Origin: a bacterium | Lineage (GTDB): Bacteria; Elusimicrobiota; Elusimicrobia; UBA1565; UBA9628 | Assembly (NCBI GenBank): GCA_021819565.1 | Contig: JAKAQV010000003.1 | Coordinates: forward strand, 1 to 34,823 | DNA length: 34,823 nucleotides | Reading direction: 5' to 3' | Program-made: the position numbers and the translations under genes | The notes under the pieces: generated by a model | What the model saw: the letters and a program-made list of their open reading frames with translations, nothing else | Told to the model about the DNA's origin: nothing | The model's database searches: none | Shown here: piece by piece, positions 7,848-33,000 of the stretch | How the letters are laid out: every line of letters starts with the position of its first letter | Position numbering within the stretch: position 1 is the stretch's first letter

Positions 7848-7856
7848 GAAAATAGT

Positions 7857-8232
7857 TGGGAGGCGGCCGATACCCCGGATTCTGTTTCCGGCCCTTGCGA
7901 ACCGGAGGGAATCATTTTTCTCAAGCGGCTACCGGGCGACTTTCGCTTTCGCGAAAATGCGCAAGCGGCGCGTGTCGCCGTTTATTGCCTTGCTCCCGGC
8001 GGGGTTTGCCTAGCCTTGTCTCTCGCGAGACAAGCGGTGGGCTCTTACCCCACCTTTTCACCCTTACCCGCGAGGCGACAGCCTCGAAGGCGGTTTGTTT
8101 CTGTGGCGCTATCCATCGGCAAAAAGTCGCCTTTTCGCCGTCTTGCCTTTCGGCAAGCGCCGCGCTTTGTGGAGTCCGGAAGTTCCTCTCCCGGAAATTA
8201 AATCCCGGAAGCGATTCCCGGCCGCCCCCTCA
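7857..8232 (-). ncRNA. rnpB: RNase P RNA, bacterial class A-like
   Basis: This is the catalytic RNA of RNase P, which cuts 5' leaders from pre-tRNAs. On the minus strand it opens near 8231 with GGGGGCGGCC, which pairs perfectly with GGCCGCCTCC at the 3' end (P1). In order I see the conserved GAACTTCCGGACTCCACA near the 5' end (a variant of the usual GGAAAGTCCGGGCT), ACAGAAACAAACCGCC, GGTAAGGGTGAAAAGGTG, GTAAGAGCCCACCG, a GGTAG...GCTTGAG segment, and ACAGAAT before P1'. Order and spacing match bacterial RNase P RNA of about 375 nt. The ends are taken from P1 and could be off by a few bases. The 3' end is about 10 nt from the asnB start codon. Confidence 0.92.
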
Positions 8233-12010: not shown

Positions 12011-12107
12011 GCGGTCAGTGAGACCGAAAAGGCAAACCTTTCGAAAGAAAGGGGCGCAAAGCGCGGGGTCCCTTGTGGATTGCCCGGCTGCCGAAGGGAT
12101 CTGATTG
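12011..12107 (+). ncRNA. Cyclic di-GMP-I (GEMM-I) riboswitch
   Basis: The core matches the GEMM-I aptamer: GGCAAACC (12031-12038), a perfect CCTTTC-GAAA-GAAAGG stem with GNRA tetraloop, then GGCGCAAAG, a variable CGGG/CCCG helix, and a closing GGCTGCCGA (about 12087-12095). Aligning by hand to the Vibrio Vc2 aptamer puts a G at the ligand-contacting position 20 and an A at position 47. This favours c-di-GMP over 3',3'-cGAMP, whose riboswitches usually have A at position 20. A tentative closing helix pairs GGTCAG (12013-12018) with CTGATT (12101-12106), right beside the ATG at 12108. The only Shine-Dalgarno candidate, AAGGGA, lies between aptamer and ATG. No terminator hairpin with a U-run is seen, so control of translation is more likely than of transcription. 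Confidence 0.87.
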
Positions 12108-12745: not shown

Positions 12746-13399
12746 ATGAACAAGAAAGCGGCCAAATTGATGATCCTGGTTTTGGGCGCGCTTGGGTGTC
12801 TGGGTTTTTCCAGGGCCTGGGCTCAAAACACAGCCCCTCAGGGCCAAGCCGAGATTGCGCGCCCTTGGGCAGAGGGTTTTAGCGTCAGTCAATCCTCGAT
12901 GTCCCGGCTTTTAGCGGTCAAATCGGTTTTTCAAGGTCCCAATAGAAGGGCGGCGAGCGCTTTAGAGGCGGCCTTTTTCCAAGAACCCCGGGCTTCTATC
13001 CGGGCCTGGATGGTGCGGGCGGAAAACCATTCCGCGCCGGGCAATATATCGTTTTTAGAAACCGCGCTTAAAGACCCCAATGTTTTTGTCCGCGAAGCCG
13101 CTATTGTCGCCTTGGGAGAGTCCAAAAAGCCTCAGGCAGTTAAGGATTTGGCTCCGCTTTTGGCCACCGAGCCCGAGCCCGGCGCGCGGATAACCATCGC
13201 TTTTTGGCTGGGTCAATTGGGGGGAAGTTCTTCGGTTGTGGCGCTTTCCCAGGCCTTGGCTCAAGATAAAGATGCCAATGTTCGCCTTCAGGCGGCGCAG
13301 TCGCTTAAGGAGATTGGGAGTAGCTCGGCTTTGAGCGCTTTAAAGCAGGCGGCCAATGACCCTAATCCCCGGGTAAGGGGGCTAGCGCAAGGAAAGTAA
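12746..13399 (+). CDS. Exported HEAT-repeat protein, probably truncated at its C-terminus
   Basis: This 217-residue protein starts at ATG 12746 with a good AAAGGAG site upstream. It has a signal peptide (KKAAKLMILVLGALGCLGF, cut likely after AWA near residue 26). Residues from about 98 to the end form three to four HEAT/PBS-lyase-type repeats with the signatures DPNVFVREAAIVALGE, GARITIAFWLGQLG, DANVRLQAAQSLKEIG and DPNPRVRGLAQ. Such repeats build a superhelical protein-binding scaffold. The last repeat is cut in the middle of its second helix. The final residues GK and the TAA stop come from the first 10-bp unit of hairpin repeat A, so the gene looks shortened by insertion of that element. 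The 119 bp between this gene and the previous one (12627-12745) hold only a short AACAAGCTTGTT palindrome, and I see no clear promoter or terminator there. Confidence 0.75.
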   Translation: MNKKAAKLMILVLGALGCLGFSRAWAQNTAPQGQAEIARPWAEGFSVSQSSMSRLLAVKSVFQGPNRRAASALEAAFFQEPRASIRAWMVRAENHSAPGNISFLETALKDPNVFVREAAIVALGESKKPQAVKDLAPLLATEPEPGARITIAFWLGQLGGSSSVVALSQALAQDKDANVRLQAAQSLKEIGSSSALSALKQAANDPNPRVRGLAQGK

Positions 13400-13607
13400 C
13401 AGAAAGAAAATGAAAGCAACGGAAAGAAACGGAAAGTTACAGAAAGTAACGGAAGGTAACGGAAAGTTTGGATTGCTTTCCTTGGCTTTCCATTTCTTGC
13501 CGTTGCCTTCCGTTTCTGTCCGTGACTTGCCGTGTCTTTCCGCTGCTTGCCGTGTCTTTCCGTTGCCTTCCGTTACTGGCTCTACGCCGGGCTTAGCGGT
13601 AAATTTC
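13391..13607. repeat. Decamer hairpin repeat, copy A
   Basis: The left arm is tandem 10-bp units of the form GGAAAGTAAC (variants AGAAAGTAAC, GGAAAGTTAC, GGAAGGTAAC). The centre is GGAAAGTTTGGATTG and the right arm is about nine units of the complementary type (GTTGCCTTCC, GTGTCTTTCC, GCTGCTTGCC). The arms are imperfect reverse complements and would fold into a long stem in DNA or RNA. The copy ends with GGCTCTACGCCGGGCTTAGC and GGTAAATTTC, which run into the end of toxin 1. The first unit supplies the stop codon of the HEAT gene. Unlike copies B and C it lacks the TA promoter flank on its left. Confidence 0.9.
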
Positions 13608-13865
13608 ATGAGTTCCAAGATCGTAGTAAATGACTTCGTCTTTTTGGATGAAGCGAAAAAGAATGCGCAGATGATAATTGACCGAATAAGACCAATAACC
13701 GTTCAACTCGCCTTTCAGGGGATGGGCCCTAAGGCGAGAGTCCATGGCATTAGCCCTAAACCATTGGTCCCTTTTTGCAACGAGTTTTCTCAGATTGACC
13801 GGAAGTTTGCCCAACCCTTTTTCGAAATCGGAAGTAATATGGATTTTACGGATGGGACGGAGCAT
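13593..13865 (-). CDS. RelE/YafQ-type toxin (TA pair 1)
   Basis: This protein of about 90 residues belongs to the RelE/ParE superfamily of small mRNA-cleaving toxins. Motifs: KIHITSDFEKGLGKLP at the N-terminus, HPLKGELNGYWSYSV in the middle (typical of the YafQ/RelE-StbE branch), RILFRFIQKDEVIYYDLG, and GTHEIYR at the C-terminus. These toxins cut mRNA on the ribosome. The start is ATG 13865, giving a TGATG junction with the antitoxin stop, or TTG 13868 with a 4-bp overlap. The last codons (EIYR plus stop) lie in sequence shared with the unrelated-looking toxin 2 cassette. It is encoded antisense to the surrounding exported-protein genes. Confidence 0.85.
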   Translation of the reverse strand: MLRPIRKIHITSDFEKGLGKLPVNLRKLVAKRDQWFRANAMDSRLRAHPLKGELNGYWSYSVNYHLRILFRFIQKDEVIYYDLGTHEIYR

Positions 13866-14068
13866 CAAGCGGCGCGAAGTTCCGCAAGCGACTTGAACGT
13901 AACTTTTGTCTTTCCGTTTTTAAGTTCTTTTTCCCCATGGGCAATTTTGGCTAAGGCGTCGCGCGCTTCCTCCAGGCGTTTCTGGAGCTTTTCATATTCC
14001 TTCCGAGGAAGCACAACGAGCTCGTCTCCATGGGTCAAATTTCTAGGTATGGTTAATGTGGTGAGCAT
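13865..14068 (-). CDS. Small antitoxin of TA pair 1 (AbrB/SpoVT-like)
   Basis: This 67-residue protein starts with a short beta-rich segment (TLTIPRNLTHGDELVVLPR) resembling the swapped-hairpin DNA-binding part of AbrB-like antitoxins. A charged helix follows (KEYEKLQKRLEEARDAL), then a basic tail that would wrap the toxin. It is coupled to toxin 1. The ATG at 14068 lies only 6 nt after a TACACT -10 element, so its mRNA is predicted to be leaderless. The family assignment is tentative, but the antitoxin role is strongly supported by size, order and overlap with a RelE-type toxin. Confidence 0.78.
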   Translation of the reverse strand: MLTTLTIPRNLTHGDELVVLPRKEYEKLQKRLEEARDALAKIAHGEKELKNGKTKVTFKSLAELRAA

Positions 14069-14347
14069 GAGCTTAGTGTAACATGAGACTCTTAAAAAGT
14101 CAAGGACGAACGGAGAGTCACGGAAAGTAACAGAAAGTAACAGAAAGAAAATGAAAGCAACGGAAAGTAACGGAAAGTTACAGAAAGTAACGGAAGGTAA
14201 CGGAAAGTTTGGATTGCTTTCCTTGGCTTTCCGTTTCTTGCCGTTGTCTTCCGTTTCTGTCCGTGACTTGCCGTGTCTTTCCGCTGCTTGCCGTGTCTTT
14301 CCGTTGCCTTCCGTTACTGGCTCTACGCCGGGCTTAGCGGTAAATTT
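14069..14347. repeat. Decamer hairpin repeat, copy B, with both TA flanks
   Basis: This is the complete form of the element. From left to right it holds the TA promoter flank for pair 1 (14069-14103), the linker GGACGAACGGAGAGTCAC, then left-arm decamers, the core with GGAAAGTTTGGATTG at 14202, the right arm, and the GGCTCTACGCCGGGCTTAGC flank that contains the toxin 2 stop. It differs from copies A and C by only a handful of bases across the core and right arm. It has one more AGAAAGTAAC unit on the left than they do. Confidence 0.9.
14075..14103 (-). promoter_or_regulatory. TA pair 1 promoter with overlapping palindrome
   Basis: On the minus strand: TTGACT (14103-14098), a 17-bp spacer and TACACT (14080-14075). 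The predicted start coincides with the A of the antitoxin ATG at 14068. An imperfect palindrome GACTCTTAAAAAGTC (14087-14101 on the plus strand) overlaps the -35 and spacer and could be an operator. The same promoter is present upstream of TA pair 2. Confidence 0.72.
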
Positions 14348-14588
14348 CTCTTCGGTGCCCTATGGAGAGAATGACCAGCAGTCGCTCAGAGTCATTGATC
14401 GCGTAGATGACGCGGTAATCTCCGATGCGGATCCGGTAGCGCTCGGTATGGCGAAGTTTTTGGGAGCCGTGGGGACGGGGCTCCATAGCCAAGGCCAAAA
14501 GGCGGGGTTCTATTCGGTTGCGAATGGAGAGGGGGAGACTCGCGAACTCGGACTGGGCGCTTCGGACAATCGAGACCCGATAACTCAC
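14334..14588 (-). CDS. RelE/ParE-type toxin (TA pair 2)
   Basis: This 84-residue toxin has the classical RelE/ParE pattern: YRVSIVRSAQSEFASLP at the N-terminus, the SQKLRHTERYRIRIGDYRV core near residue 42, then IYAINDSERLLVILSIGHR and the end REIYR. The basic residues around RYRIRIGDYRVIY correspond to the catalytic and RNA-binding face of RelE. The GTG start at 14588-14586 overlaps the antitoxin stop (GTGA). Apart from the shared superfamily fold and the last four residues it has little similarity to toxin 1. It ends inside the hairpin copy B flank. Confidence 0.88.
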   Translation of the reverse strand: MSYRVSIVRSAQSEFASLPLSIRNRIEPRLLALAMEPRPHGSQKLRHTERYRIRIGDYRVIYAINDSERLLVILSIGHRREIYR

Positions 14589-14797
14589 GGGGCGCGTTTT
14601 GTTTTTAGAGAGGAAAGAAATTGTTTGAGCGGGCGCGTCGGCTCTTTTAAGCGGCTTTCCGTGATGGCCAGATCAATAAGGTCTTCGCGGAGGCTTTCAT
14701 CTTGGACGATGTGGACGAAGACTTCATCTTGGACGCGCCGTGGCAATGCTCGAAAAGCCGTGAGGAACACATTGGCGGTCGCTTGTTCCGTGGTCAT
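14585..14797 (-). CDS. Antitoxin of TA pair 2 (helical, RelB-like)
   Basis: This 70-residue, probably all-helical protein has segments LTAFRALPRRVQDEVFVHIV and DESLREDLIDLAITESRL, a pattern often found in small proteins directly upstream of RelE toxins. It has no visible relation to the beta-rich antitoxin 1. The ATG at 14797 follows the same promoter as pair 1 with the same 6-nt gap after the -10, so it is also predicted to be leaderless. It overlaps the toxin GTG by 4 bp. Family naming is uncertain; the role follows from context. Confidence 0.75.
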   Translation of the reverse strand: MTTEQATANVFLTAFRALPRRVQDEVFVHIVQDESLREDLIDLAITESRLKEPTRPLKQFLSSLKTKRAP

Positions 14798-15046
14798 GAG
14801 CCTAGTGTAACATGAGACTCTTAAAAAGTCAAGGACGAACGGAGAGTCACGGAAAGCAGCAGAAAGAAGATGAAAGTAACAGAAAGTAACAGAAAGTTAC
14901 GGAAAGTAACGGAAGGTAACGGAAAGTTTGGATTGCTTTCCTTGGCTTTCCGTTACTTGCCGTTGCCTTCCGTTTCTGTCCGTGACTTGCCGTGTCTTTC
15001 CGCTGCTTGCCGTGTCTTTCCGTTGCCTTCCGTTGCCTTCTGTTTC
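14798..15046. repeat. Decamer hairpin repeat, copy C, fused to the giant gene
   Basis: The left side carries the TA promoter flank and linker as in copy B, then decamers, the core with GGAAAGTTTGGATTG at 14921 and the right arm. The right flank GGCTCTACGCC seen in A and B is missing. After two GTTGCCTTCC units the sequence degrades into TGTTTCCTTCTTTTCTCC and becomes the signal-peptide coding region of the giant gene. An ATG (14870) at the same relative place as in A and B opens the frame that continues into the giant protein. Confidence 0.88.
14804..14832 (-). promoter_or_regulatory. TA pair 2 promoter, near-identical to that of pair 1
   Basis: On the minus strand: TTGACT (14832-14827), a 17-bp spacer and TACACT (14809-14804), then 6 nt to the ATG at 14797. 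The GACTCTTAAAAAGTC palindrome is repeated. Promoter and putative operator are shared although the two antitoxins are of different types. Confidence 0.72.
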
Positions 15047-18000
15047 CTTCTTTTCTCCGTCCTCGCCTTTTTCCCCGGCAAAGCGGGGGCGCAGCAGTTG
15101 ATTTCCAATTTCACCACGGGAGATGTTTCATGGCCGGGCAGCCGGCACGTTTTTTATGATCACGGAATCGGGCAAGTTTTTGTCTTTTATTCCCAGCCCT
15201 ACGGCATCGCCTACCGCTCTTATAATTTCAGTTCCTGGTCGAATGAATCTGTTGTTATCTCAACAGGCCAAGCCCTGGCTCTTGACCCCACCACCACTGG
15301 TCCTGGCGGTAGCGCGCCCACGGACACAAACACGATGTATTCCAGCGTCTATTATGACCAAGCCTCAAGCTCGGTCTACGTTATCGCCTCGGATCCCAAC
15401 GCTCTCCTTGAGAATAAATCAGGCCCAGGATGCACCAATGGATATGCGAACAGCGTCTTTCTCATTCACGGAACTATTAATTCGAACGGGTCTATTTCCT
15501 GGGGGAGCCTTGTTCAAAAAGCTCCCTCGGCTCAGGTGGCCAACTCCAATTCAGGAGGAGGTGAATGCGCCCCCGGGAGAAGCGTCGGAATTACCTACAT
15601 GAAGGGCGCTCCGTCAGGCCTTATTTCCTTTGTCTGCGATGCCCAGGCGGTCAATGGCTGCGGAGCCGGAAACCCGACGTATAAAACTTCGATTATTGGC
15701 ATGTATGGATTAAGCACCGCGTTTTCCGGCGGAACCGCTTGGTCTGCCGACCACAATGATGGCAATAGAGCCAGCAACACGTCTCCCGCCGAACTTAATT
15801 ACGGAGAAATCGTTCCAGTCAATGACGTCTCCGGAGGCGGAAGTTATGACTTCATGGTGTCTCAGGAATTTCAATATGGATCAGCTGTTATCAACTCTTA
15901 TCAATACACGGGCACTTATAACTCTAATGAGTTGACCACGGGTGGAATAGCTTCTTTTAACGCTTTAGTGACCGACTCCATGGCGCCCCAGCCGGATAAT
16001 GTTTCTTCCCTGGCCGCTCTTGGCTATATAGATAGTTTGGGTGAGCTAAGCTATTACGAGCGCACGGGCTTTCAAACATGGGGGACTAAAGCCGTGATAG
16101 ATGGATGCGGGGCTTCAATTACCACTCCCTGCGGAAACCCCAGCACGGTTTACGTTGTCAATTCGCCCGTGGTTGGAGGCGATGCGGCGTACACGATTTA
16201 TCTTTCTAGTTTTGGCGCGGTCAATTATGCCTACGGCGCTATCGCCAACGGACCATTCACTATTTCTTCTAACTGGCAGCCGGCGGCTGCGGAAACGGTG
16301 CCTCAAGCTCCGGCATATATCGTCGCGCCAGACCCAATTCCAGTGGTCATGGACAATACCTCGGGCGGGCTTGATTTTGAGTTTATTCCCACGGATGCGC
16401 TTGGACCGCCGACGATCACTTCTATTTCTTCATCGCCGACCACCGCTCCATTTTCAACGAATGCTTACGATCTTGTCCTGACCGGAACGAATTTCATGCA
16501 GGAGAGTAGCATCCTTCAATCCCAGGTCGGGATTCTTCTTGGAGGAGGCGCTCAGGGCAATATCACGGTGACTTCCACGACCTATGTCAGTTCGACTCAA
16601 ATTAGGGCCTCCATCGTTATCAACAGCAATGGCGGCAGCCCCTATGATATCCAGGTCAGCAATCCCGATGGCAGAAGCTCTATTGATTCCAAGGCTCTTT
16701 CTTTGCCTCTCCCCGTGGTCACAAGCGTGTCCGAGGATTTTGCCAATCATCATTTGAGCAGTCCAAAATATGATCTTGTCATCAGCGGCTCCGGATTTGA
16801 GGATTGGGCAAGCCCCGGTCCCGTTTCGGTGACTCTTCTTAAAGGAGGGCTCACCCAAACGGAAATCAGCGTCACTTCTACTACTTATACGAGTCAGAAT
16901 CAGTTGCGCGCCTCTATCGTTTTAAACCCGCCCATTTCAGGCGGCCCTTATGACGTAAAAGTGACAAATTCTGACGGGCAAACCTATACCTTGAGCGCGG
17001 CTTATTCCATTCCCGCGCCGACATTGACGGGAATTGTGATCAATGGTGAAGCGGTTCCGTCGGGAGGAATTGAGCCCAATATTCCGGATTGCGCTGGGAA
17101 TAGTTGCCCTTCGACGCCATCTGGACGGCCGACAAGACAACTAGTGGTCTCGGGAGCCAATTTTGAAGACTGGACAAGCCCGATTGCCTCGGTCACGATC
17201 TCGGGCGTTTTTGTCGATTCGGTCACTTATTCCAATTCAGGACTTTTTACCGCCAATATCAACGTGACGACAGCGGCGGCATCGGGGCTTGAGAGCGTCA
17301 CGGTCATCAACGCCGACGGCCAAGCCTCAAGCACGATCGCTTCGACTTTTACCGTGACGGTTCCCACGGCGGCGGTGAGTTATCCGACCACTGTTTCCGG
17401 GACGATTTACAATCCCAACACCGCGATTTATTATTCATCGGGAGTTCCCAATATTTTGGGAACGGCGTCTTATTCTCCGGCTTCGGGGCAAACCTTCCTC
17501 TTGACGAGTCAAGCCGAAATCGAGCAATTGAGCGGAACCAACGCCGGTTATTTCTGGAACGGGGCCAATTTCCAGGCGGTTTCGGCTTTTACCGCTCCGG
17601 CTTCCGAAACGGAATGGCAGCCGGCCAGCGCGGCCACCCCGTGGAATTACAGCGGTTGGACTAACAACAACACCGATCAAGCCGATGGAACTTCTTATAA
17701 CATCGCTTGGCGGGGACTGACGGCGGATGAGGGCTGGAGCTATCCCATTTCAAGCTTTACCTTGACGATCGATAAATCCCCGCCGGTGTCGAGCGTTTTG
17801 ACGCCGGTCGGAGGCACTGTCGTCAATTCCCAGCCGGATATTCAAATTCAATCGGTGGACGCGGGCGTTGGCGTGTCTCAGATGTGGATCTTGGCCGAAG
17901 ACACCAATTCGTTTTCCTGGACCGGGTCTTCCTGGAGCGCGATTCCCGGAGCGATGTTTATTTCGACCAACGGCGCGGGCGGAGGATCGCCGAATATGGT

Positions 18001-21000
18001 TTTCTCTCCTCCGGAGGAAAATCCGGGGATTTTGACCTTTAACTCGGCTACGACCATTCAAGTTCCGGCTTGGAAAAATGGAGCCGAGTACAGCATTCAG
18101 GCCGCGGGACAAGACGCCTTGGGTCATTACCAAGCCGCGTCCGCGATCAACTTTTTTTATGATGTCAATAACCCCACGGCGACGATTATCTCTCCCGTCA
18201 TTAGCGCCAACTCCGCCAGTCCCACCTGGCTTAACTCTCTCACGAATATTTCAGGCTCTATTTCGGATTTAGACATCATCAGTGGAAACACGATTTTCTC
18301 GGTCAATAACACCGTCGCCATTCAGATTAAGGATTTGACGAATGGAAACTTTTTTAACGGTTCAAGCTCGTTAATTGAAGGCTCAAGCCAAACCTTCATC
18401 TCCACCTCGGCCGTTCCCTCCAACGAAAATGGCGCCGATCCCTTTATGTATTTTTATTACACGACCACCAACGGCTCTTGGGCCGACGCCATTTCCGGCA
18501 TTCCCTTTCAAAACGGGCATGACTATCGCATCGCGATGTATGCCTGTAACCCCACGGAGCCGATTGGCTCGCCAGCTTCTCCGGGTTGCGACGGCGGAGA
18601 CGGAACCACCGCTTCTGATTCGGATGGCAGCGCGACTTCCCAAGCCCCGGCTTTTATCGGCTATTTTAATTTCAATAATAATCCGCCGACTTCCGCGGTC
18701 ACTTTTCCGACGACTTTAGCCACCCCCAACGCTTTTGGCGATGATAATTCTCAAACGGCGTCTTCTTTGTCGATGCTATGGGGAACGGCTTCGGCGGCAA
18801 CGGACGTTTCCGGAATTTTCGCCGAAGAATACACGCTCCAAGACACGATTACCGGCGATTATTGGTGCAATCCCGCTTCCACCGCGCCCAATAGCTCTTG
18901 TTACGGGGCAGCCTCGGCCGGGTTTATCGCGATTGGCGTCGGCCAGACCGCGCCCTGGATTATTTCTCAAACGACGACGACCCCGTCTTGGGCAGGTTGG
19001 GAAATCAACAATATTCCGTTTCTTAACGGCCATTCTTTTCAACTGATTACCAAGGCGGTCGACACTGCGGGAAACGTTCAAGTCGTTTATTCGACGACCA
19101 ATTTTATCTATGACTCTTCCGCCCCAATTACGGCCGCGAAATATCCGTTAAACAATGACGCCTATTCCGTTCAGGTCGGAACCATCTCAGGAACAGCTCT
19201 GGACCAGCCGCAACCGTTTAACTCCGGAATTTTCGCGAACTTCTTGGGAATTCAAAGGCAATCGGACGGCTCCTGGTGGACGACCGGAGGCTGGACTCAA
19301 ACGCGCTCGGATATCGGGCAGCCTTCGGTCAACTTAAATACCTCGGCCAGCCCCAATACCTGGCTTTATTCTCTTCCCGCCGGTTTTTGGACCTCGATTA
19401 GTCTTGCGGATCGGTTCAAAATCTATTCCTGGAGCGAGGACGAAGTTCAAAACGAAACGCTGTCTTCGACTCCCTCGGTTGAAAATATCGAGTCCTCAAC
19501 GACGCTTAAGGATATTTTTAACTATGACACCGAGGCTCCGACTTCCACCATCGTTTCGCCCAGCGATCAAATTTGGTATTCCAATGTCGCGCCGACTAAT
19601 TTGCCCGATTTGACCGGAACCGCGACGGACAATCCGGCTTATCCGGGACCTCCGGCGGTCAGCTCCGCCGATGCCGCCGGAATGTCTTCCGTGAGCGTCG
19701 AGATCCGCGATGAAAACACCTGCCCGAATTGTCTTTACTGGGATGACGCGACGAAGTCTTGGGTGACAAGTTCCATTTTTAACCCGACCACGTTAACGAT
19801 CAATAATCCCAATCCATCAAATTGGAGCTTTCCAACTTCTAATTTAGAGCCGAATTTAACCAGCGGGCACACCTATCGCGTTCGAACGCAAGGCATTGAC
19901 GCGGCCTTGGATCAAAACGGAAATTCAGCCGGCAATACCGAAAATCCCGCTAATATCCTTCAAAGCCAACAAACTACGCCGCCCTATTCCGATACGCATT
20001 TCTTCTTCTGGGATTCGGAAGCCCCCAATTCCGTGATTACCGTTCCGAGTAATGGGCAGACCTTGAACAGTCTCACCACTATTTCAGGAACAGTTCAGGA
20101 TAACCCCCAGCCGTTTAATTCGGGTCTGGGCGGAGTCTTCGTCACGATGTGCGAGGATTCCGGCTCCGGAACTTGCGCGGCCAACACTTATTATGGCGGA
20201 AACCCCCTGACCGTGGACTTGGCGGGAGAGTGGCCGCTTAACGAGGGAACCGGCTCTACCGTGAAAGATATTTCGGGCAATGGAAATAACGGGACTATTT
20301 ATGGCGGATACACCTGGGTTTCGGGCGTCCCGGGGCTTGAAAGCGCGGCGGTCAACCTCAACGGAACCAGCGGCGACATCAGCACTCCCTATGTTCAAAA
20401 CAGCGTGACGGCTTATTCAATCTCTTTATGGGTCAATACCACCGATAGCGCCAGCAAATTGGCCCTTGTTCAAGACCGGGGATCGGGCGCGGGGCTTAGC
20501 TTGACCTTGGGAATGGGTACCGACGGCGGCGGAAACGGCGGTCCGGGTTTGCCCTTTTTTGAGTTAGACAGCAATGGGACCGATATCGGCATTGCGGCTT
20601 CGACTAAGACAATTGACGACGGGGTTTGGCACAATGTCATCGGAGTTTGGAGCGCGCCGAGCGGAACAGGGATTGCCGCCACGCAATTTACTCTCTATGT
20701 GGACGGGACCCAGGTGACGACGACGGCTGCGTCCATTGGATCTCAAAGTTCGCCTCTGACGGGTTCCGGAGGAACTCAAATTGGTTACGATGCCGCCTGG
20801 GGCACCTATGTCGCGGGAACCTTTGATGACGTTCGCATTTATACGCAAGCCCTTTCCCAGACCGACATTACCGCCTTGGCTAATAAGCAGACTTCTCTCG
20901 GAGCTTCTTTTAGCTCGGCCAGCCCCTATTGGATACTGGCGACGACGACTTCTTATTCCAATGGAGTTTACGACTGGATATTTCCCGTCGCCCAAAATAC

Positions 21001-24000
21001 GTTCTCAAATAACACGACCTACGACATTATCGTTCAATCATCGGACACGGTCAATAATTTAGAGACCGCGGTTTCAAATGCCGTCGCCAATTCGGATCAC
21101 ATTGAGTTCACTTTCGCGACTCCTCCGCCGACTTCTTCAATTGTCGTTCCGCCTTCCGGAATCCCCAATTACGCGAAAGACGGTTCCCTGGGATCGAGCC
21201 AGCTTTTAACCACTTTTTCCGGAGCGGCGGCCAACGCGACCAGCGTGCAACTTTTAGTTAACGAAATTAAAAATAATTACTATTGGACCGGATCATCATG
21301 GACGGTGAACAATCCCGGCGGTTGCGGAAATTGGGTCAATTCCAGTTCTTTGACGGGTTCGGGCGGCAGCCAAGGGTGGACTTATAATTGGCCGGCCTCA
21401 AGCGACTGGATTGGCAATTCCAGCTATACGGTAACCGTTTGCGCGATTCAAAACGCGACGCTCCAAAGCGGGACCTTAGCCTCGGCGGAATTCATCATTG
21501 AGTCCACCGCTCCGACGGTCGCGGTAGATTCCCCTCCTGGAACTTCAACCGACACCTTGACGAGCTTAAGCGGAACGGCGACCGAGGTTCCTCCCAGTTC
21601 CATCAGTCAAATCGCTTTTTCCGTGCAAAGAAATTTTGACGGGAAATACTGGGATGTCGACAAGGACACTTTTGATTTAACGAGTTATTCCACTTCGGCG
21701 GCCATTGTAGCCGTGACTTCAGACGGGCTTAATTTTTCATCCGCGACGGCTTTGGGAAATGCCATGTGGCAGGACGGATTTTCTTATACCATTCAAATGC
21801 ACGGAACCGATTTGGCCGGAAACATCGCCACGGTCAACAGCCGCTCTTTCCTTTATGACGTGTCCTTGCCCACCGCCGGGGTTCAAGAGCCCATTACCGG
21901 CGTTTACGCGAATTTGCTCAACACCTTAAACGGAACCGCCGTTGACCCCAATCCCAATCCCGGAAACGTCAACTCCGCGCCTTCCGGCATCGGCTCGGTT
22001 CAGTTTTCGCTTGAGTATTTAAACAGTGGATATTGTTATAACGGCGGGTCAAATTTTAACGCGATTTGTCCCTCTTGGAACAGCGCTTCCTTCTATCAAT
22101 CCTCTGTCGGGCAGGCGACCTGGAGCTTTACCTCTGCCGGGCTTAACTCCGCAGCTTTGGACGGAAATTATTTGATCTTGGTTCGGGCGCAAGACAACGC
22201 GGGAAATCTCCAAAACGGCTTCCAGGTCGGCATCTCGTCTTTGACTTTCCGCGTGGATAAAACCGCGCCCAATATCGTCATCACCCAGCCTTTTAGCTTT
22301 TACTATCAGCCCAATGGGGTCGGCATCAACACCGGAGGCGTTGGCATTCAAGGAACGGCGGTTGACCCGATTACCAATGGGGTCGCCTCCGGTCTTTTGA
22401 CCTCAGGCATCGACATTCAATTGTGGTATTTACAAGCCGGAACCAGTTATTACTGGCAGGGAAGCCCGGGGCAAGGCGCGGCCGGGTGGACGCCTTCGCC
22501 GTCCACTTTCACCGCCAATGGAACTTCTTGGAATTCTCCGTCCGCGCCCGATGCCGGAGATTATTTGGCGGTTGGGCCGCAAGAATTTTTCACCTGGGCC
22601 CAGGCCCATGACGCTTCCACCTTGGCCAACGGCCAGGTTTCTCCTTCCACCGGAAATCTCAGCGCGTTTACGCCCATTGACGCCTTTATCGTCGACGGCG
22701 TTCCGCCGGTGTCCTCCATGACGGTTCCGACCAACAACACCTTCGTCAATTCCTTGACTCAGATTTCCGGAACGGCGGAGGCGCAACTGGCCGGAATTTC
22801 AAATGTTCAGGTTCGCATTACGACTAATCCCGCGACCGGGCCGGACTGGAACGGGTCGGCCTGGACTTTTACGGGGGTTCCTATTTATAATGCGGCGAGT
22901 TTCACCGCTCAAACCGGACCCACGACTTCGACACTGACCTGGACTTATTCGAGCTTGACCGGCGCATTTCAAACCGGCACGGTCTATGATATTTTCTCGC
23001 AAGCGACCGATAATGCCGGAAACGTTCAGACAACGCCGACGGAATTTGTCATCACATATGACACCGAACCGCCCAATTTGGCGGTTAGTTTCCCCGCTCA
23101 GCCGCCGGCGGTGCCGCCCTACTCCAACAATTTTGAATCAACCCGCATTTCCACCTGCGTTTATGGGACAGTGTCTTCTCCCGGGACCAATCCTCCGGGA
23201 GTTTCCCAGGTCTGGATCGCGATTTCCTCCGGCTCCAACGATAACGTTTGGTGGAATGACGCGACCCAGGCTTTTGATCTGAATAATTCCGCCATTCAAT
23301 GGTCAACCCAGGTCTATCTTGGGGGAAATTCCTGGAGCTATTGCCCTGCGGGCTTTGAGCAATCCAAAAACACATTTTCAAGCGGCATTACCTATACGGT
23401 GTTTACCTACGCCAAAGACAATGCCGGAAATACCACAAACTTTGTCTCAAACCCGACTTCATCAAACGCTGGGCAAACCCAGGCTTTCCTTTATGACGCG
23501 TCTACTCCGACAGCGACGGTCAGTTTCCCAGCCAATAACACCAGCACCAATACCTGGGCCGCAATCTCGGGCAATGCGAGCGATCCCTTGCCGTCTCCTT
23601 CAGGGGTGTCTCAAGTTTGGCTGGCGGTTCAATGTCTTTCAGGTCCCGCTTGTGCGACGGGTTCTGCCTGGTGGGATTGGACGACGGGAGCCTTCAATAC
23701 TTCCTTGTCTAATCCCTCGCCGACGGCTCCGCCTTTTAACGCCGCCTGGACCTTGGTCTATTCGACGACGACCCAGGATTTGGGAAGCGTGGTTTGGTCA
23801 ACTCCCACGCCGGCGGGAATGGCAGTGTCGTCAAGCGTCTATCAGGCAACAGCCTTGGCTATTGACCAAGCAACCAACGTCCAGCAAAACGCCTCTGTCT
23901 TGGGCGCGGGTTCGCAATTTAGATTCGACAATCAGGCGCCTTTAATCGCCTCCACCGAACCGGTGACCGCAAGTTATCTCAATTTGGCCAATCTCGCTTT

Positions 24001-27000
24001 AATTGCCGGAACAGCCAATGACGCTACGACGGGAAATTCCGGGCTTCAATCGGTGCAGATTTTGCTCAAGGCGCAAAGCCTTCAGGCTTATTGGAACGGC
24101 TCTCGCACCGGAGTTTTCTCAAGCGATTGGGACACCAGCGGAACTAAATATAACGACTGGCAACCGGCGACGGGACTCCTCCAGTGGACGACGACGTATC
24201 CCCCGATGTCGGACGTAGACTCCATGCAGTTTAGTCTTTGGGTCCGGGCCAATGACAATGCTGGAAATGTCGGCACGATGCCCTCTGCTTCCGTCGGACT
24301 TCCCACGGATACCCAACTCGACAACAACCAAAATGCCGACGGTTCTCCGGTTCTCGAATTTATTTATGACAACACGCCGCCAATTTCCCGCGCGACCTAT
24401 CCACCGACTTATTTTAACGCAATCCCAACGACCATTTCCGGAACTGCGACCGACCCAGGTCTCTATCAGCCCTCGGGGGTTAATGATGTCGAGATTCTCT
24501 TAGAACGTTCTGATGGGAGCTATTGGAACATGGTGTCTCAATCCTGGCAAGGAACCAGCCCCGGGTTTACCAATGTCAGCCGCGTGGGATTGACGAACTG
24601 GACGTTCTCCAATTTCTCAGGCGCTTTTGCCGATGGATACCAATACGCGGTGAACCCTCAGGCGACTGATAACGCGACTAATGTCGAAACCGCTTATTCC
24701 ACTCATGATTTTATCGTGGACCTGTCGACGCCTATCTCCGCTCCCGTTTGGCCGCCCAATAACGGTTTTGCCAATAATGTCAGCTCCATTACCGGAACCG
24801 CGGATGATTTCTTCTGCGACCTTAACCCAACCCTGTGCCCTTCTTCCGGACGGGACTTTCAATCCGGAATTTCAACCATTGAGGTCGCCATTCAAGATTT
24901 AACTCAAGGAACCACTTGGTGGAACGGGACTTCTTTTGTGAGTTCGGCGGTTCCGATATGGTCAACCGCCACGTTTACCGGAGCCTCTTCCGGAACCTGG
25001 GTCTACAATTTGCCGGGCGGGGCGTTGACGAATGAACACAAATTCGCGTCCTCGGCCTACGCGATAGACAAGGCCGGAAACATCGAAGAAGTGAATTTAA
25101 CGACCAACACCTTTATTTATGACACAACACCTCCGGTTTCCATCGCGACTGCCCCGGCGGGTTCCATTACATCGGTGTCCGCCATCTCCGGAACGGCATA
25201 TGCGATTAGTCCCGATCAACTTCAAGTTGTCGGCGTGGCCCTTCAAGAAACCAGCGGATGCAACGGGGGCGGAACCCCGGCGCATTCTAACGAGTATTGG
25301 AACGGCTCTTCTTGGCAGACGGGGCAGGTGTATGTCGATTCCGGCGTCATCGGAGGCTTTGTCGCTTTGAGCAGCACATACGCCTGGGCGATGAACACCG
25401 CTGGAATCGCCTTTGACAATAACGCCAACTATCAGGTGACTTCCCGGGCCTTGGATAAGGCGGGCAACTTAGAGACCGCCCATATTACCTACGACACCAC
25501 TTTCTGCTTGGGGGTTCCGCCTTCCAATCCCACGATCACCCAGCCGGCGGTGGGCGGACAATATCAGACGCTGGCTTCCGCTGTCAACACTTTTTCCGGA
25601 GGCGGGTCTAATCTCGATTCCTCTAATCCCAACGGAATTGAAATTCAGCTTCAACGGCTGACGAGCCCCACGAGTTACTGGTATGACCCCACCGAACTTT
25701 GGTCCAATGACTCTTCTACTTATACGCCGACCGCTCCCATTAATGCGACGACCTGGAACTATGGATTAAGCACGCCGGGCGCGCCGTATCAGATTCAAAA
25801 CGCCTCTTATAGTTTGACGGTGATGGGATATAATAGCGCGGACTTGCCTGGAACTCCCGCTCAGGTGACCTTCGTCATTGATAATGTTAAACCCCAAAGC
25901 TTTATCGCGACTCCCGTTCCCAATTATTGCCCGGTCTCAGGAACCAACGCCTGCTTTAACACCATGCCCTTTATATCGGGAACATCCATTGACCCGGGAA
26001 ACGTCGCCCCTCCCTCGGTGACGCAATCTTTAGTCAATGTGCGCGTTAAAAATCTCTATAACAACGACTACTGGAATTCCCAGGCCTTCGTGGGTTCCGT
26101 TCAAGAATTTAACCCCGGGGTGTTTAGCTTCTCCGGTAATCCGCCCACTTATTCCTGGAGCACTTCGACATTAGCGGGCTTGGGCCTTCAAGATGGAATC
26201 ACCTACGAAATCTTGGCCCATGCGGCAGACCTGGCAGGAAACGACACCTTGACGGAATCCAATATGGCCAATTTTACTTTCCTTTATGATACAAGTCCGC
26301 CCACGGCTTATATCGCGACGCCGCAGGCGAGCCAGGTCTACCTAGGCGTGACGCCGATTACGGGGACCGCTTTTGATCCGGCCGGAGCTAACGGCAATCA
26401 TTTAAAATCCGATTTGGCCAAAGTTGAAATTTCGATTAAATCCATTTCCGGAAACGCGTGTTGGTCGGATTCCAATGATCAATTTAACGTCGCTTGCCCG
26501 AGTTTTACCGTCGTCAGCGGCACCGCCTCTTGGTCTTATAATAATCCCAATTTAAACGGGGCTTTAACTAATGACGAACAGTACGCGGTCACCGCTCAAG
26601 CGACCGACAACGCGGGCAACGTTCAAAGCGTCTACACGGTTCCGCTTTCAAGCCTGACTTTCGCTTTCGACAATGTCCCACCTAATGTGGGGATTGTGTT
26701 ACCTCAAAATAACGCCGCTTATTCTTGCGCGGCGGGAAGTCTCAACTGTTTGACCGGAGCTTCCGCCATCAACGGAACGGCCTCAAGCCCGGATGCCGCG
26801 CTTTATCCCGGAAATAATGCCCTTCAAGACGCCCAAGTGGTCATCTGGTTTTTGGCTGACCCGACCAACTACACTTTATCCGGCGGAACCAGCTATTACT
26901 ACACCGGAGTCGTCGGCTCCAACGGAACTAAATTTTCATCGAGCACCACCGAGGGAGCTTCTTGGCAGGCGGCCAATTCAACCGCGACCTGGGATTTCTT

Positions 27001-30000
27001 GTTTATTGGGACAGACTGGGTTAATGAAGAGCAGTATTATGTCAAGGCTCGCGCGACTGACAACGCTTTAAACGCGGCCGGAGTCATCACCGGAAACACG
27101 ACTTCCGTTTTTACCAACGGTCAAAATTTGATGAGTTTCATCATCCAAAACACTCCGCCGGTTTCTCAATTAATTACGCCGCCGCCGGGAAGCTACATTC
27201 AAGACTTTACTTCCATTTCCGGAACCGCCAATGTGGGCTTGGCCGGAGGCGATACCTATTATCTTTTCATCAGCACCCAGGACAGTTCCGGAAACGCCTA
27301 TTACTGGACCGGATCGGCCTGGGGCGCCGCCAATGTCTTCTACCAACTTCCGGTTCAGGTCACGGGTTCAACCGGAACGGTCAATTGGGCTTATCCCGGC
27401 TCCCCGGCTCTTCCAGGCGAAAACACGCCGACGACCAATCAACCCAATGGCACGGTTTTCTCTATCGCTTTTCAGGCTAAAGACAACGCCGGTAATTTAG
27501 AGACGCCGACGACCTCTCAGGTCATCTTGGATAAAACCGGCCCTAATGTCGCGATCTCAACTCCGATGGCCTCCGCGCCGGACTACGGCTCGACTAGGCT
27601 TTTGAGCGTGGTCAATGGGACCGCTTTTGAGTCGGTCGCCCCTGTGACCCAGGTCTTGGTTCAACTCAACGATATTTCCGATAGCCCGTCCTTAATGTGG
27701 GACGGTTCCACCTGGGGTGTCTATTCATCGACCTATCTTGTCGTCAGTGGAACTCAGCCATGGACCTTTAATTCTCCGCCCTGGATTAATAATAAGGAAT
27801 ATGTGGCATCGGTCGAAGCCTATGACGCGGCGGGAAATTTATCGCCGACCGGGCAAACCAATCAGCAGGTGACATTTATTTATGATGTCAACGCCCCAAC
27901 GTCTACCATTGCGGTTCCGTCTCTTCCTTTTTATCCATCAGGTCAACCTGCCATTCTAAACGGGCAGGCTTTCGACTGGGTCAGCTATCCCTCAACTCAA
28001 ACCATGTCGGGGCTCAATAATGTTCAAGTTTCCATCACTCAAAATAATGTCAACGGATGTTCTTTGGAATATTGGGATGGAACGGCTTGGCAGCCGACTG
28101 GCGGGCCTTATTGGCGCGTTGTCTCGACTAATACCGCCAACCCCGCGACCTGGAATTATCCACCGTCGAATCCCTCGGGAGATACGATTCCGACTTGGGC
28201 CAATGGCTGCAATTATACCGTTCAAACCCGCGCGACGGACAATTCTCAGAATGTCGAGGCTTTGTCTCATCAGCCAGCCAAGAGCTTTACCTACGACAAT
28301 CAGCCGCCGACATTCGCGATCTTAAGCCCCGCGTATTCATATGTCCAGGGCGTTTCTTCGATCAATGGGACTGCTAATGACCCCATCAGCTCGATGAATG
28401 GCGGGGAAGCGGCGGTCTATATGGCGGTTCAAAGACAAGACGGGAAATTCTGGGATGGGACAGGGTTTAATATTTCCTGCACCGGATCGGCGCTGTCTTC
28501 TTGCTCAAACGGTTCCGGCGGAACTTCGGATCCCTTTTTGAGCGCGGCTTTGACTTCCATCTTTGTTTCCTCGGCAAACTGGGCCTTAACCGGCAGCACG
28601 ATGACCAACCTCAGCGCTTATTTCAACACCACGGCGACTTCCCTTCAATTCTCGCTTTACGCTTCCGTCATTGACAATGCCGGAAACATCACGCGTTCGA
28701 CGACCACGGTTCCAGCTTTGGGCGCGGATTTCATCTTTACCGTTGATCACTTCCCACCAGTTTCAATTACGACATATCCCGCCGCGGCTTATTTGCAGGG
28801 AAATGTCGTTCCCGTCGCCGGAACCGCCGAGGATGATTTAAACGGAGCGGGGGTCGCTTCCGTTGGAATTGAAGCCCTTCAGGTCAATTCCGCCGGAACT
28901 ACTAATTACTGGAATTTCCTTGGTTCTTGGCAGACGACCGATCCGGGATATACCAGCGTTTCCTTGCTTGGAGGGGTTCCCGGCGGGACCCTGGCTTCCT
29001 GGAGCGCCTCAACCAATTCTCTTCCAAGTTCGGCCTTTGCGGATGGATATCTCTATCACATCGTTTCCCAGGCCGAAGATTTGTCCAATCCGCCCAATAT
29101 CCAGGTCAATTTAACGACTATCTCATTCATCGTGGACGATGACACGCCAACGGTTTCGATGGTGACGCCGACTCCTCCGCAAATTTATATCAGCACTTCT
29201 AATTTCGCGTTTTCCTCCGGCACCGTGGTTGATCCCTTAGTCGGCGGCGATATCCCTTCGGGCGTGGCTAATGTCTTCTTGACGGTTTATGATATTAGTT
29301 CCAATACCTGGTGGAACGGAAGCGGTTGGCAAACGGCTTCAAGCACGCAAACGGCTAATCTCTATCAAAGCTCATGGACATATACCCATTTCCCGACGGA
29401 TTGGACTCAAGGGTACTCTCCCTCGGACGGCGACCGCTATCGGGTGAACGTTTGGGCGGTGGACCGCGCGGGAAATAATGGTTCTCTCGCGTTTTCAACA
29501 TCCGTTGTCTTGACGATGGACGTGACGCCGCCCTTGGCGCAAGTGACTTCTCCCGCGGGAGGCTCGATTGCCTCAAGCCTGGATACGATTTCTGGAACCG
29601 CACAAGATTTCTTGGTCAACAATTCTTCTTCCGGCGTTCAATCCGTGGCGTTGAGCATTTTCGATAAAGGCGGCGGCACGGGAGATCCTAATATCAATAA
29701 ATACTGGAATCAGGCGAGCGGGGTTTGGTCTTCTAATCAGGTCTGGAACACGACCGCGTTTACGGCTCCGAATTGGGCGTTTAATTCGTCTAATCTCAAT
29801 TCAACGCTGACGGTTTATTCTCAATATGTTTTGACTTCGAGCGCGACCGATATCGCCGGAAATTCCCAAGCGGTCATTTCTTCGGGAGTTGTGACCTACG
29901 AGCCGCCTCCAGCGGTTACGGCAATTACCTATCCCGTGAGCTTGAATTATTACAGTTCGCTTCTGACAATTCAGGGAACTGCCAATGCCAACACCGAGTC

Positions 30001-33000
30001 AAACAATATTCAAATTGAACGTCTTGACACCGCTCAATGTTGGACCGGATCGGCCTGGGGATCTTGTCCCGATGCGCGTTCCATTAGCCCCTCTTCTCCG
30101 ACCTGGAGCTATCCCTCGGGGTCTGACATCATTCCGGCCTGGGTCAATAACACCAGTTACACGATTACTGAAACCGGGTTTAATACCGCCGGAATCGCCG
30201 AGAGCCCAAATCAGCAATTGGAATTTTATATCGATCAGTCTTCCCCGATTTCGCGCGTGAACTTCCCGGCGAACGCCTCTTATATCAACGCCGTTCCGAC
30301 TTTGTCCGGAACCGCCCAGGACGCCATCATTAATGGCATAGACTCCGGCATCAAAAACCCCGGCGGAATCAATATCACTTTGCAGAGAACCGATAATAAC
30401 GATTACTGGAATCAGGCGACCAGCACCTGGGTGGCTTCAATTACTCCTTTTACCGATACCGCGACTTATGACGCGGCATCGACCACCTGGAGTTTTGTCG
30501 CCTCTAGCCCGACACTGGCCTGGCAAGACGGCTTATCTTATAAGCTCTCGGTTAATTCCGAAGACAATGCCCAACCGACGCCCAATGTTGAGGCCATCAG
30601 CAGTCTTAATACCGTCAATTTCACATATGACACGACGCCTCCGGGAATTTTCGTTCAGTATCCAAACGCGGCGCGGGAGTCGAGTTTAGCGACTCTTTAC
30701 GGAACAGCCTCGGTGCCCAGTTTTGGCGCGCTCCAAAATGTCCAGGTGGCGATTTACTCCCAGGCCAATGCCGCTTGGGCTAATCCCGGAGGCAATCTTA
30801 ACTTTACCGAACCCACTGAAAATCTTGCTTTCTTTAGCGCGAACACAACCGGTGGTCCGACGAGTTTTAATTGGACGGTTTCAAGCGGCATTCCCTGGGT
30901 CGCGGGAGACACCTATACCGTGGTCGCTCGGGCCTTAGATGAGGCGGGGAATTATTCCGTTCCTTATTCCACCTCTCCTAATTTCGTCTACGACAATTTG
31001 CCTCCGATTACCGCCGTGATCTTGCCGGCCAATGGCGGCTTTATCAATTCCTTGCCGATCATCTCTGGAACCGCGGCCGATCAACCAAGCGTGAACCCCA
31101 GCGTTTTGAGCGAAACCGACGTTCAGATTAAGCGTTTGGATAACGGACAATACTGGAGCGGTTCGGGCTGGGTTTCGGCCGCCACTTTGCAATCAACCTT
31201 GGCTCAAATTGAAATCTGGCAGGATATTTATCCATCGACCTGGAACGTGACGCCTGCCGATATGCCAACCGTCGCCAATGGCGGCCTTGTCTCCGGAACC
31301 TCCTATTACATTACGGCGCGCTCGATAGACAGCGCAAGCCCCGCCAACACCGAGGCCTTTGGGAACGCTTTCTCTTCGACCTTTACCTTTAGCACGACGA
31401 CTCCCACTTCTTTTGTCGCGATCCCCAATCAGCCTTTTTATAATAATCTGACCTTTATCTCCGGATCCGGAAGCGCCGCTTTCCAGAATGTGGCTTTATC
31501 GACGATCGCGCTTGAAATTCAGGACGTGACGGGCTCCGCTTGTTATGACAGCTCTAACAATCTCTTCGATCTAAGTTGTCCCGTTTGGTTTGGGGCCCAA
31601 GGCTCCACAAATTCTTGGACTTATACCTTGCCGTCCAATCCCTGGACCCAGGCGCATCAATACATCGTCTATTCTTCCGCGACCGATGTCGCGGGAAACG
31701 TTCAGGCTTTAATTAGCTCTTCCACCTTCGCATATGACATAGAGGCGCCGACGGCGGCGGTGATTGTCGCTCATTATATCAACGCTTCGGTGGCATCCAT
31801 TGGCGGCACCGCTTTTGACAGCCCGGCCGGAGTGTCTACGCTTCAAATTGCGGTTTCATCGAATGCCGGCGCGGCGGGTTCTTGGCTGAGCGGAAAAAAT
31901 GGGACTTATACCGCCAACGGTCCCGTTTATCTCGCGACTTCGACTTTTGTTTTCGGAAGTCCCGACAACTGGACCGAGGCCACCGCGAATTTAAATCTCC
32001 TGACGGGAGACACCTACTATATCCAAATCTTCGAAGAAGACAATGCCGGAAATTCAAGGACTCAGGATTTCCTCAACGCTTTTGTCTATGACACGGCGAC
32101 GCCTTCTATCGCGATCACCCAGCCGGACAAACTTTACTACAACAATCCCATCTCCATTACGGGGACCTCGGGAGAAATTCCGCCGGGATATGTCACCGCG
32201 GTTCAAATCCGGATTTCAACCGCGACCCAGGATTGGACCGGGACGGCTTGGACGAATTCAACTCCTTATTGGCTGACAGTTCCGGGGAGTCTTAATTCCT
32301 GGGTTTATACTTCGACTCCGCCCTGGGTGAGCGGTCAAACCTATACCATCTATGCGCAGGCCACCGATGTCGCGGGAAACCCCTCTTCCCTTCAAACTTA
32401 TTCCTTTACATATGACGTCAGCAATCCCTTGGCCTCCATGGTTTTCCCATCATCAGCCCGAACCGGAATCGCGGGAAATAATCTCTTGAGCGTCCAGCAA
32501 TCGACGGGAACGGCGGTGGACCCGGCGGGCAACCCGTTGACCTTGGTCCAGGTTCGGGTCGAGCAGGTTTCCCCGACGCCGGCCGCTTTCTGGGATCCTT
32601 CCAACGGCACTTTTGACATTTTGCCGGCTAACGAAGACACGGCGTGGTTTGGAGCGGCGACTTCGGATAATTGGGCCAGTTGGTCGGTCTCAAGCGCGGC
32701 GGTTTTTGCCGCGTTAAATAGCGGAGGGCAGTATCAATTTAGTTCTCGCGCTTTTGACGCCGCCGGAAACGTCTCGACGGTTTATTCAACGATGACGACG
32801 ATTTACGATATCTATCCTCCCGAGACGGGCGTGACGGATCCAGCCAACGGAATTTCGACTAATTCCTGGGTCGCGCTCGTGGGAACAGCCGTTGATTTTA
32901 CCAATGTCCCCGGCCCGAATAATATTAATTTAGGAACAGTTCAGCGCGTTCAGGTTCAGATCGAGAGATTGGATACCAAGCAGTACTGGAATACCGGGTC

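Follow-up and report, generated by a model that had tools for sequence, protein, structure and literature searches.

The locus raises the question of where a very large gene obtained its translation start and its predicted signal peptide. The window, i.e., the whole stretch of DNA analyzed (34,823 nt), is contig C193 of G000, a draft MAG of 1.8 Mb in 195 contigs (80.9% complete). It carries an ORF for a giant, putatively secreted protein with Laminin_G_3 and bacterial Ig-like domains (14870..34823, forward strand), which runs from ATG 14870 for 6,651 aa (19,953 nt) without a stop and is still open at the contig end. Huge proteins are reported to be abundant in Elusimicrobiota in the available part of a previous study (PMC11573180). 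The 5′ end of the gene overlaps a hairpin, copy C (14825..15050, forward strand), which consists of a purine arm (14825-14927) and a pyrimidine arm (14933-15050) with arm scores of 61.8 and 63.0. As RNA, copy C folds to -107.5 kcal/mol, compared to -64.3 ± 4.9 kcal/mol for 200 shuffled sequences (z = -8.8), none of which folded as well. A preliminary description had proposed that the frame opens at the ATG in the left arm of copy C and stays open across the hairpin. Both points were borne out, as ATG 14870 is supplied by copy C and is the first in-frame start of the giant ORF, and the span of copy C contains no stops in the coding frame versus three in each of the other frames. The nearest in-frame stop on the 5′ side is TAA at 14822, with no ATG, GTG or TTG in between.

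Translation of the predicted leader (14870..15091, forward strand; 74 codons) gives MKVTESNRKLRKVTEGNGKFGLLSLAFRYLPLPSVSVRDLPCLSAACRVFPLPSVAFCFLLFSVLAFFPGKAGA, which ends in ...VAFCFLLFSVLAFFPGKAGA and is followed by QQ. The n-region corresponds to the purine arm and most of the h-region to the pyrimidine arm, while comparison with congener G001 (AVLALGVFAPKPARG) marks 15051..15091 (forward strand) as a native-like end of the h-region plus the c-region. The leader has a net charge of +4 over residues 1-25, and its most hydrophobic stretch ends nine residues before the putative cut. The right arm was thus correctly described as running into signal-peptide codons that end in AGA-QQ, with the cleavage between AGA and QQ being predicted only. 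The span given at the time, 14870-15095, covers only part of copy C, whose start is at ~14825. Two further candidate starts, 14987 and 15023, are poor ones, since both are TTG codons that lie behind pyrimidine-rich sequence and lack a visible ribosome-binding site; TTG 14933, which is preceded by GGAAAG, is a better alternative. Translation of the giant protein most likely starts at ATG 14870 or TTG 14933, although both translation and cleavage are inferred. No recognizable Shine-Dalgarno sequence precedes ATG 14870, which, together with the toxin-antitoxin cassettes lying between the giant gene and its upstream neighbor, would also suit a decaying pseudogene whose leader was overwritten and whose open frame is merely left over. 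We hold this to be very improbable given 19,953 nt of open frame without a stop and a copy C frame that is stop-free although the repeat unit carries TAA.

The same locus was compared in the four other members of the genus (G001-G004, draft quality; loci L043-L046). The order of a HEAT-repeat gene followed by the giant gene is kept in all four, with upstream HEAT orthologs that are 66-78% identical, and the N-terminal 540 aa of the giant protein share 64-65% identity in two congeners and 44% in the other two. Their giant-gene leaders are MRKRTSRLGLFLIFGAVLALGVFAPKPARG (G001), MTSGRKKALRRMSLALWALGFCGLFAFFPRPARA (G002 and G004) and a third kind in G003, and a ribosome-binding-site-like sequence precedes the gene in G001, G002 and G004. 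The likeness of the window leader to that of G001 resumes only at about VLA, and all window sequence upstream of VLA is hairpin. No 10-nt hairpin was found between the HEAT and giant genes of G001-G004, and genome-wide DNA searches with copy C returned five matches in G002, one in G003, seven in G004 and none in G001, with none at the giant-gene locus. The proposal that the element supplied the start of the downstream gene would have been refuted by the same start in element-free relatives, which was looked for and is absent from all four congeners with conserved gene order. Since other leaders and no such hairpin occur at this locus in all four, it is supported, as far as sequence comparison can tell, that the hairpin gave the giant gene its first in-frame start and most of its predicted signal peptide. 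A frame opened purely by chance is unlikely given the stops in the other frames and the relatives.

Between the HEAT-repeat gene (12746..13399, forward strand; PF13646, E = 3.8e-23) and the giant gene, the window is arranged as copy A, cassette 1, copy B, cassette 2 and copy C. The last codons and the stop of the HEAT gene lie at the start of copy A (13391..13577, forward strand), and copy B spans 14096..14318 (forward strand). Cassette 1 comprises a YafQ/RelE-like toxin (13593..13868, minus strand; PF15738, E = 1.5e-4, below the curated cut-off) and a putative antitoxin (13865..14068, minus strand), while cassette 2 comprises a ParE-type toxin (14334..14588, minus strand; PF05016, E = 5.4e-11) and a putative antitoxin (14585..14797, minus strand); both antitoxin genes overlap the start of their toxin gene and have no Pfam match. 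Look-alikes of both cassette 2 genes are present in the G003 array. Copies A and B had been said to carry the same ATG and frame as copy C, and alignment of the arms and of the three copies agrees, with ATG 13410 opening a 223-aa ORF and ATG 14151 a 219-aa ORF, both antisense to the toxin-antitoxin genes.

In the congeners, the HEAT-giant interval is filled by arrays of small minus-strand genes, of which several resemble toxin-antitoxin genes by eye. After the HEAT stop, G004 and G002 repeat the beginning of the giant gene (its start codon and ~15-20 codons), and the giant gene itself has a complete version of this leader in front; the cassettes therefore sit between leader copies. The leader repeat is present four times in G004, and a similar layout occurs at G002:C62, where a partial hairpin copy is followed by a small minus-strand gene (by eye) and a full copy before a signal-peptide gene. 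Given that this layout recurs in the congeners, each with leaders of its own, copies A and B are best read as putative relict leaders left behind by toxin-antitoxin cassettes entering the leader. The array layout is observed directly and the mode of cassette entry is inferred; integration of a circle through one crossover in the leader would yield this array. Arrays at three of the four congener loci also contain nine minus-strand tRNAs predicted by ARAGORN (Ser-GCT, Asp-GTC, Val-GAC and one odd Phe-AAA), but a tRNA hot spot as the cause of the hairpin was rejected as the window has no tRNA. The region before the giant gene (window 13391-14860, L043-L046) can be described in its own right as a hot spot for toxin-antitoxin-like cassettes bounded by leader copies. 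L045 has a HicA-like ORF (by eye) on the minus strand (5626-5883 and 6484-6741) that terminates within the reverse complement of a giant-gene leader copy, so that this copy also ends the cassette gene. Elsewhere in the window, a c-di-GMP-I-GGC riboswitch (12022-12096) lies 5′ of a small ORF and is present in all four congeners, and a bacterial class A RNase P RNA is found at 7855-8229 on the minus strand.

Copy C belongs to a family dispersed among several unrelated genes of G000. Copy C, a consensus and a pattern served as queries and together identified 23 places, all of which were read, and the multi-unit pattern occurs 149 times at ≤3 mismatches versus none for the reversed control. Both arms (local alignment score against the 10-nt unit of ≥24 for each) are present at 17 places, forming elements of 105-431 nt with a 10-nt period. 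When all frames were read outward from each element, twelve of these 17 continued in frame into a gene for a putatively exported protein, beginning at a start codon that lies within the element or immediately next to it. Besides the giant gene with copy C (C193), the leader elements belong to four FadL/PorV-like proteins of outer-membrane type (C61 and C144, with PorV above cut-off; C142 and C156a, with weak or other matches), two lipoproteins with a lipobox by eye (C48 and C20), a prepilin with the N_methyl motif above cut-off (C152), a TadE-like pilin with TadE just below cut-off (C34), a trypsin-like protease (C135), a T2SS-F family protein (C194; the leaders of its relatives resemble signal peptides) and a protein that is TPR-like by eye (C102). 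The leaders measured (n = 10) are 48-89 residues long; those of C20, C142, C194 and C34 depend on element-internal starts, and that of C156a is interrupted by a nested repeat from a different family. The remaining two-armed elements are copies A and B, one at the 3′ ends of convergent genes (C56) and two in intergenic DNA (C156c and C33). These classes were assigned by eye with no signal-peptide predictor behind them, and the count leaves out six of the 23 places in which one or both arms are weak (C156b, C28, C133, C67, C44 and C40), four of which also show signal peptides, possibly by chance. As a separate observation, two 10-nt hairpins at L076 (4029-4430 and 8493-8923) have a palindrome from another family (GTCATTCCGGCGACCGAGC...) nested between their arms.

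How far 12 of 17 departs from expectation depends on the null. A scripted signal-peptide rule, which is far too lax and served as an upper bound only, matched 124 of 284 ORFs on a relative's contig (44%). Gene starts under this rule make up 6% of the DNA, giving P = 1e-11 for random placement (a rough figure from the relative's contig); when insertion is limited to non-coding DNA and gene 5′ ends the share is 29% (P = 5e-4), and against the 44% base rate among genes alone the enrichment is weak (P = 0.025). An unrelated REP-like control palindrome on the same congener contig contributes leader codons at only four of 30 sites, in two genes (Fisher P = 2e-4 versus 12/17).

The different distribution of the control family bears on whether the element is an ordinary extragenic palindrome that sits in the 5′ UTR, with the gene starting downstream and the in-frame reading being incidental. 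Palindromes are frequent between genes, some copies are indeed intergenic and the pyrimidine arm offers TTG codons, so that this reading retains a small chance. It is opposed by the native ATG lying upstream of the element at C102 and C152 and by an h-region that is element sequence at most leader loci, where a downstream start would leave no signal peptide. The control palindrome, GGGGACWGTCCCC, was rejected as an instance of the same phenomenon since it is mostly extragenic, though it also occurs in the C142-ortholog leader of four congeners.

Orthologs without the element indicate in-frame insertion at C102, C152, C194 and C142, in addition to the giant gene (compared with four congeners). 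At C102, all four relatives have the mature sequence QQNLAAQ or QQNLALQ, preceded in three by the quite different native leaders MKNKIMKKTSIYLFLFIISPALLSNSLFA, MKRQIIKAITVSVPVFLWMMVIANSVFA and MKEKRFPTHSYFYLPFLLLLSASASA and cut by a contig end in the fourth. In G000 the ATG, overlapping the upstream stop, is kept and is followed by the hairpin-coded MREQKVMESHGKNKKSRKPDRSEGRSLLSILSVTFRCFQSLSVAFFFFPLLLLSIPAFA and then QQNLAAQ. Similarly, relatives of C152 have MK, MNVRS, MNARS or MRAR before GFTLIELL, while G000 keeps ATG-AAC, continues with a long hairpin-coded stretch and then resumes at GFTLIELL. At C194 (compared in three relatives, the G002 upstream sequence coming from a different stretch) and C142, the native start in G000 is in another frame, and an element-internal ATG is required because that frame terminates inside the element. 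The C142 orthologs of four congeners have leaders of their own that contain the other palindrome (MNKKRGQSPFS...KGTVPFF); the C142 leader position is thus occupied by two repeat families across L070 and L088-L091, the congener palindrome being AAAAGGGGACAGTCCCCTTTT-like. The hairpin leader of C144 is common to G000, G002 and G004; the G000 and G004 versions differ by a net 21 nt within the ORF and by 16 nt immediately upstream of it. Conservation of the frame, here and in the stop counts below, is the only support for translation of the inserts. Native export leaders therefore appear, from these alignments, to have been replaced by the hairpin while the mature N-terminus stayed the same.

The ability of the palindrome to serve as a leader may follow from its unit. 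The purine arm consists of TAACGGAAAG-like units and the pyrimidine arm of their complement. Because 10 and 3 are coprime, every frame yields the same peptide, i.e., *RKVTESNGK for (TAACGGAAAG)n and LSVTFRYFPL for (CTTTCCGTTA)n, so that each purine-arm frame gives a basic and each pyrimidine-arm frame a hydrophobic peptide. The TAA of the unit is lost in units with CAAC, GAAAC or TTAC. In a hand count over 17 leader elements (12 from G000 and five from relatives), the coding frame was stop-free across the whole element in 11, compared to six of 34 other frames (P = 0.0013), and the remaining six leader elements have their start inside the element, after the last stop. The palindrome would thus be a frame-independent signal-peptide module, with its translation inferred and not shown.

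The pattern was found at ≤2 mismatches in seven of 44 genomes of the family and at ≤1 mismatch in four of 340 genomes of the phylum, beyond which no search was made. In G002, G004, G012, G016 and G022, too, most copies lie at leaders, including a TadE-like gene in another genus (G016), although several are single arms and possibly chance; non-leader elements occur in relatives as well (G002:C34, G016:C199:1343 and G008:C2). In G004, a paralogous family (QVPGV.HYQGSLRDKSGNP; C7, C9, C12 and C42, i.e., L157, L158, L159 and L156) has related hairpin-type leaders at several copies. The arms are out of strict register, which excludes an exact inverted duplication, and a shift of 10 nt hardly alters how well they pair, so units have been gained and lost since. 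Such unit turnover would also be expected if pyrimidine-rich signal-peptide codons (e.g., TTTCTTTCCGTT) had grown locally, with slippage and template switching turning them into 10-nt arrays plus a complementary arm, without insertion from elsewhere. Short or one-armed forms at signal peptides (C40, C133 and C28; C8 in G003; C23 in G002) and the ~1.5 units in the n-region of the G004 ortholog of C194 are in keeping with local growth, which we consider unlikely. Loop sequence is common to unrelated genes (24 nt for C152/C135 and 15 nt for C194/C34), which favors copying between loci over independent growth, non-leader copies are known (C56, C156c and C33), and the native leaders of relatives at C102 and C142 do not resemble seeds of the full hairpin. 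Mobility of the repeat is inferred: the elements have inverted arms, one part of the MITE definition (terminal inverted repeats, target-site duplications and a parent transposase), and no transposase was linked to the repeat, with transposases and target-site duplications not having been systematically sought.

Overall, we think it likely that a dispersed family of 10-nt-unit repeats that spell export signals overtook the leader of the giant gene and that toxin-antitoxin cassettes later entered that leader. A repeat landing at the 5′ end of an exported-protein gene would be tolerated or even favored because, when read through, it spells an export signal. In any frame, a long, basic and polar n-region would come from the purine arm and a hydrophobic h-region from the pyrimidine arm, while the cleavage site would remain the host gene's own. 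At the giant gene, the repeat would have displaced the native ribosome-binding site and start together with the n-region and much the greater part of the h-region; two toxin-antitoxin cassettes may then have entered the leader, each leaving a copy (A and B) and an intact copy C before the gene. Repeat family, positions, open frames and native leaders of relatives are observed, whereas translation through the hairpin, export function and the order of events are deduced. The RNA hairpin counts against this explanation as it could block initiation. More broadly, selfish palindromes may persist by acting as a universal, frame-independent secretion leader for exported genes, often with the start codon included, and, within a single bacterial family, may have repeatedly seized the leaders of outer-membrane proteins, lipoproteins and pilins as well as that of a giant surface-type protein, after which the leader would form a seam for adding toxin-antitoxin cassettes without silencing the gene; for this wider proposal we see the chances as evenly balanced.

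If so, the family offers a repeated, concrete case of repeat DNA turning into protein whose function can be predicted. In a purine/pyrimidine palindrome, polarity of one side and hydrophobicity of the other come automatically, so that each of its frames is nearly a signal peptide already. This makes testable how new secretion signals originate, how much sequence is required for a signal peptide and what determines the places in which repeats settle. Gene callers may mis-start genes with hairpin leaders, and the cassette arrays suggest a route for adding toxin-antitoxin modules before a gene while restoring its start.

Several known systems share features with these elements. Integron cassette arrays carry serial small cassettes, often toxin-antitoxin modules, each bounded by a copy of one sequence. 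The window resembles them in its serial small cassettes bounded by copies of one sequence, but the boundary sequence is the leader of the resident gene and varies between species; attC sites were tentatively set aside since the boundary repeats are gene leaders (no integrase search was made). Within the open-licence literature on leader-forming palindromes and Elusimicrobiota repeats, as far as its accessible text extends, no leader-concentrated repeat family or frame-independent leader coding was found beyond the precedents cited here. REPs, described in the accessible text as small (20-40 bp) palindromes (PMC3733652), are likewise dispersed, and the REP-like GGGGACWGTCCCC family is present in the genus. 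However, REPs are mostly extragenic, whereas the 10-nt hairpin lacks the GGGGACWGTCCCC core and is concentrated in leaders; with 105-431 nt and 12 of 17 elements in coding leaders, it does not meet the REP criterion (20-40 bp, mainly extragenic), which also separates it from REP/RAYT systems. PARCELs (palindromic amphipathic repeat coding elements) are palindromic coding repeats tied to membrane proteins but, in the portion of the source at hand, form 25-residue amphipathic tandem domains and not leaders (PMC2996958). Yersinia RU-2/YPAL in YPO1552 is a precedent for a repeat-derived signal peptide, although the source, so far as available, gives one main case covering the first 30 residues of one protein, in contrast to the genome-wide family of G000, in which both arms are used and native leaders are known from relatives. 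Rickettsia palindromic elements (RPEs) and protein-coding palindromes of Wolbachia, ~100-150 bp long according to the available excerpts, are inserted in frame in protein genes, and one palindrome-bearing product of this type was shown to be translated (PMC2229807, PMC10969869). RPEs thus share with the G000 element the placement of palindromic repeats in frame within protein genes; they differ, in the same excerpts, in residing in unrelated and often metabolic genes with a conserved peptide, while the G000 element is built from 10-nt units and takes the place of the export leaders at which it sits. Dispersal over several unrelated genes and in-frame insertion relative to element-free orthologs, two criteria for protein-coding palindromic elements as a functional class, are fulfilled in G000. 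The Rickettsia palindromic elements and the single Yersinia RU-2 signal peptide are the nearest precedents.
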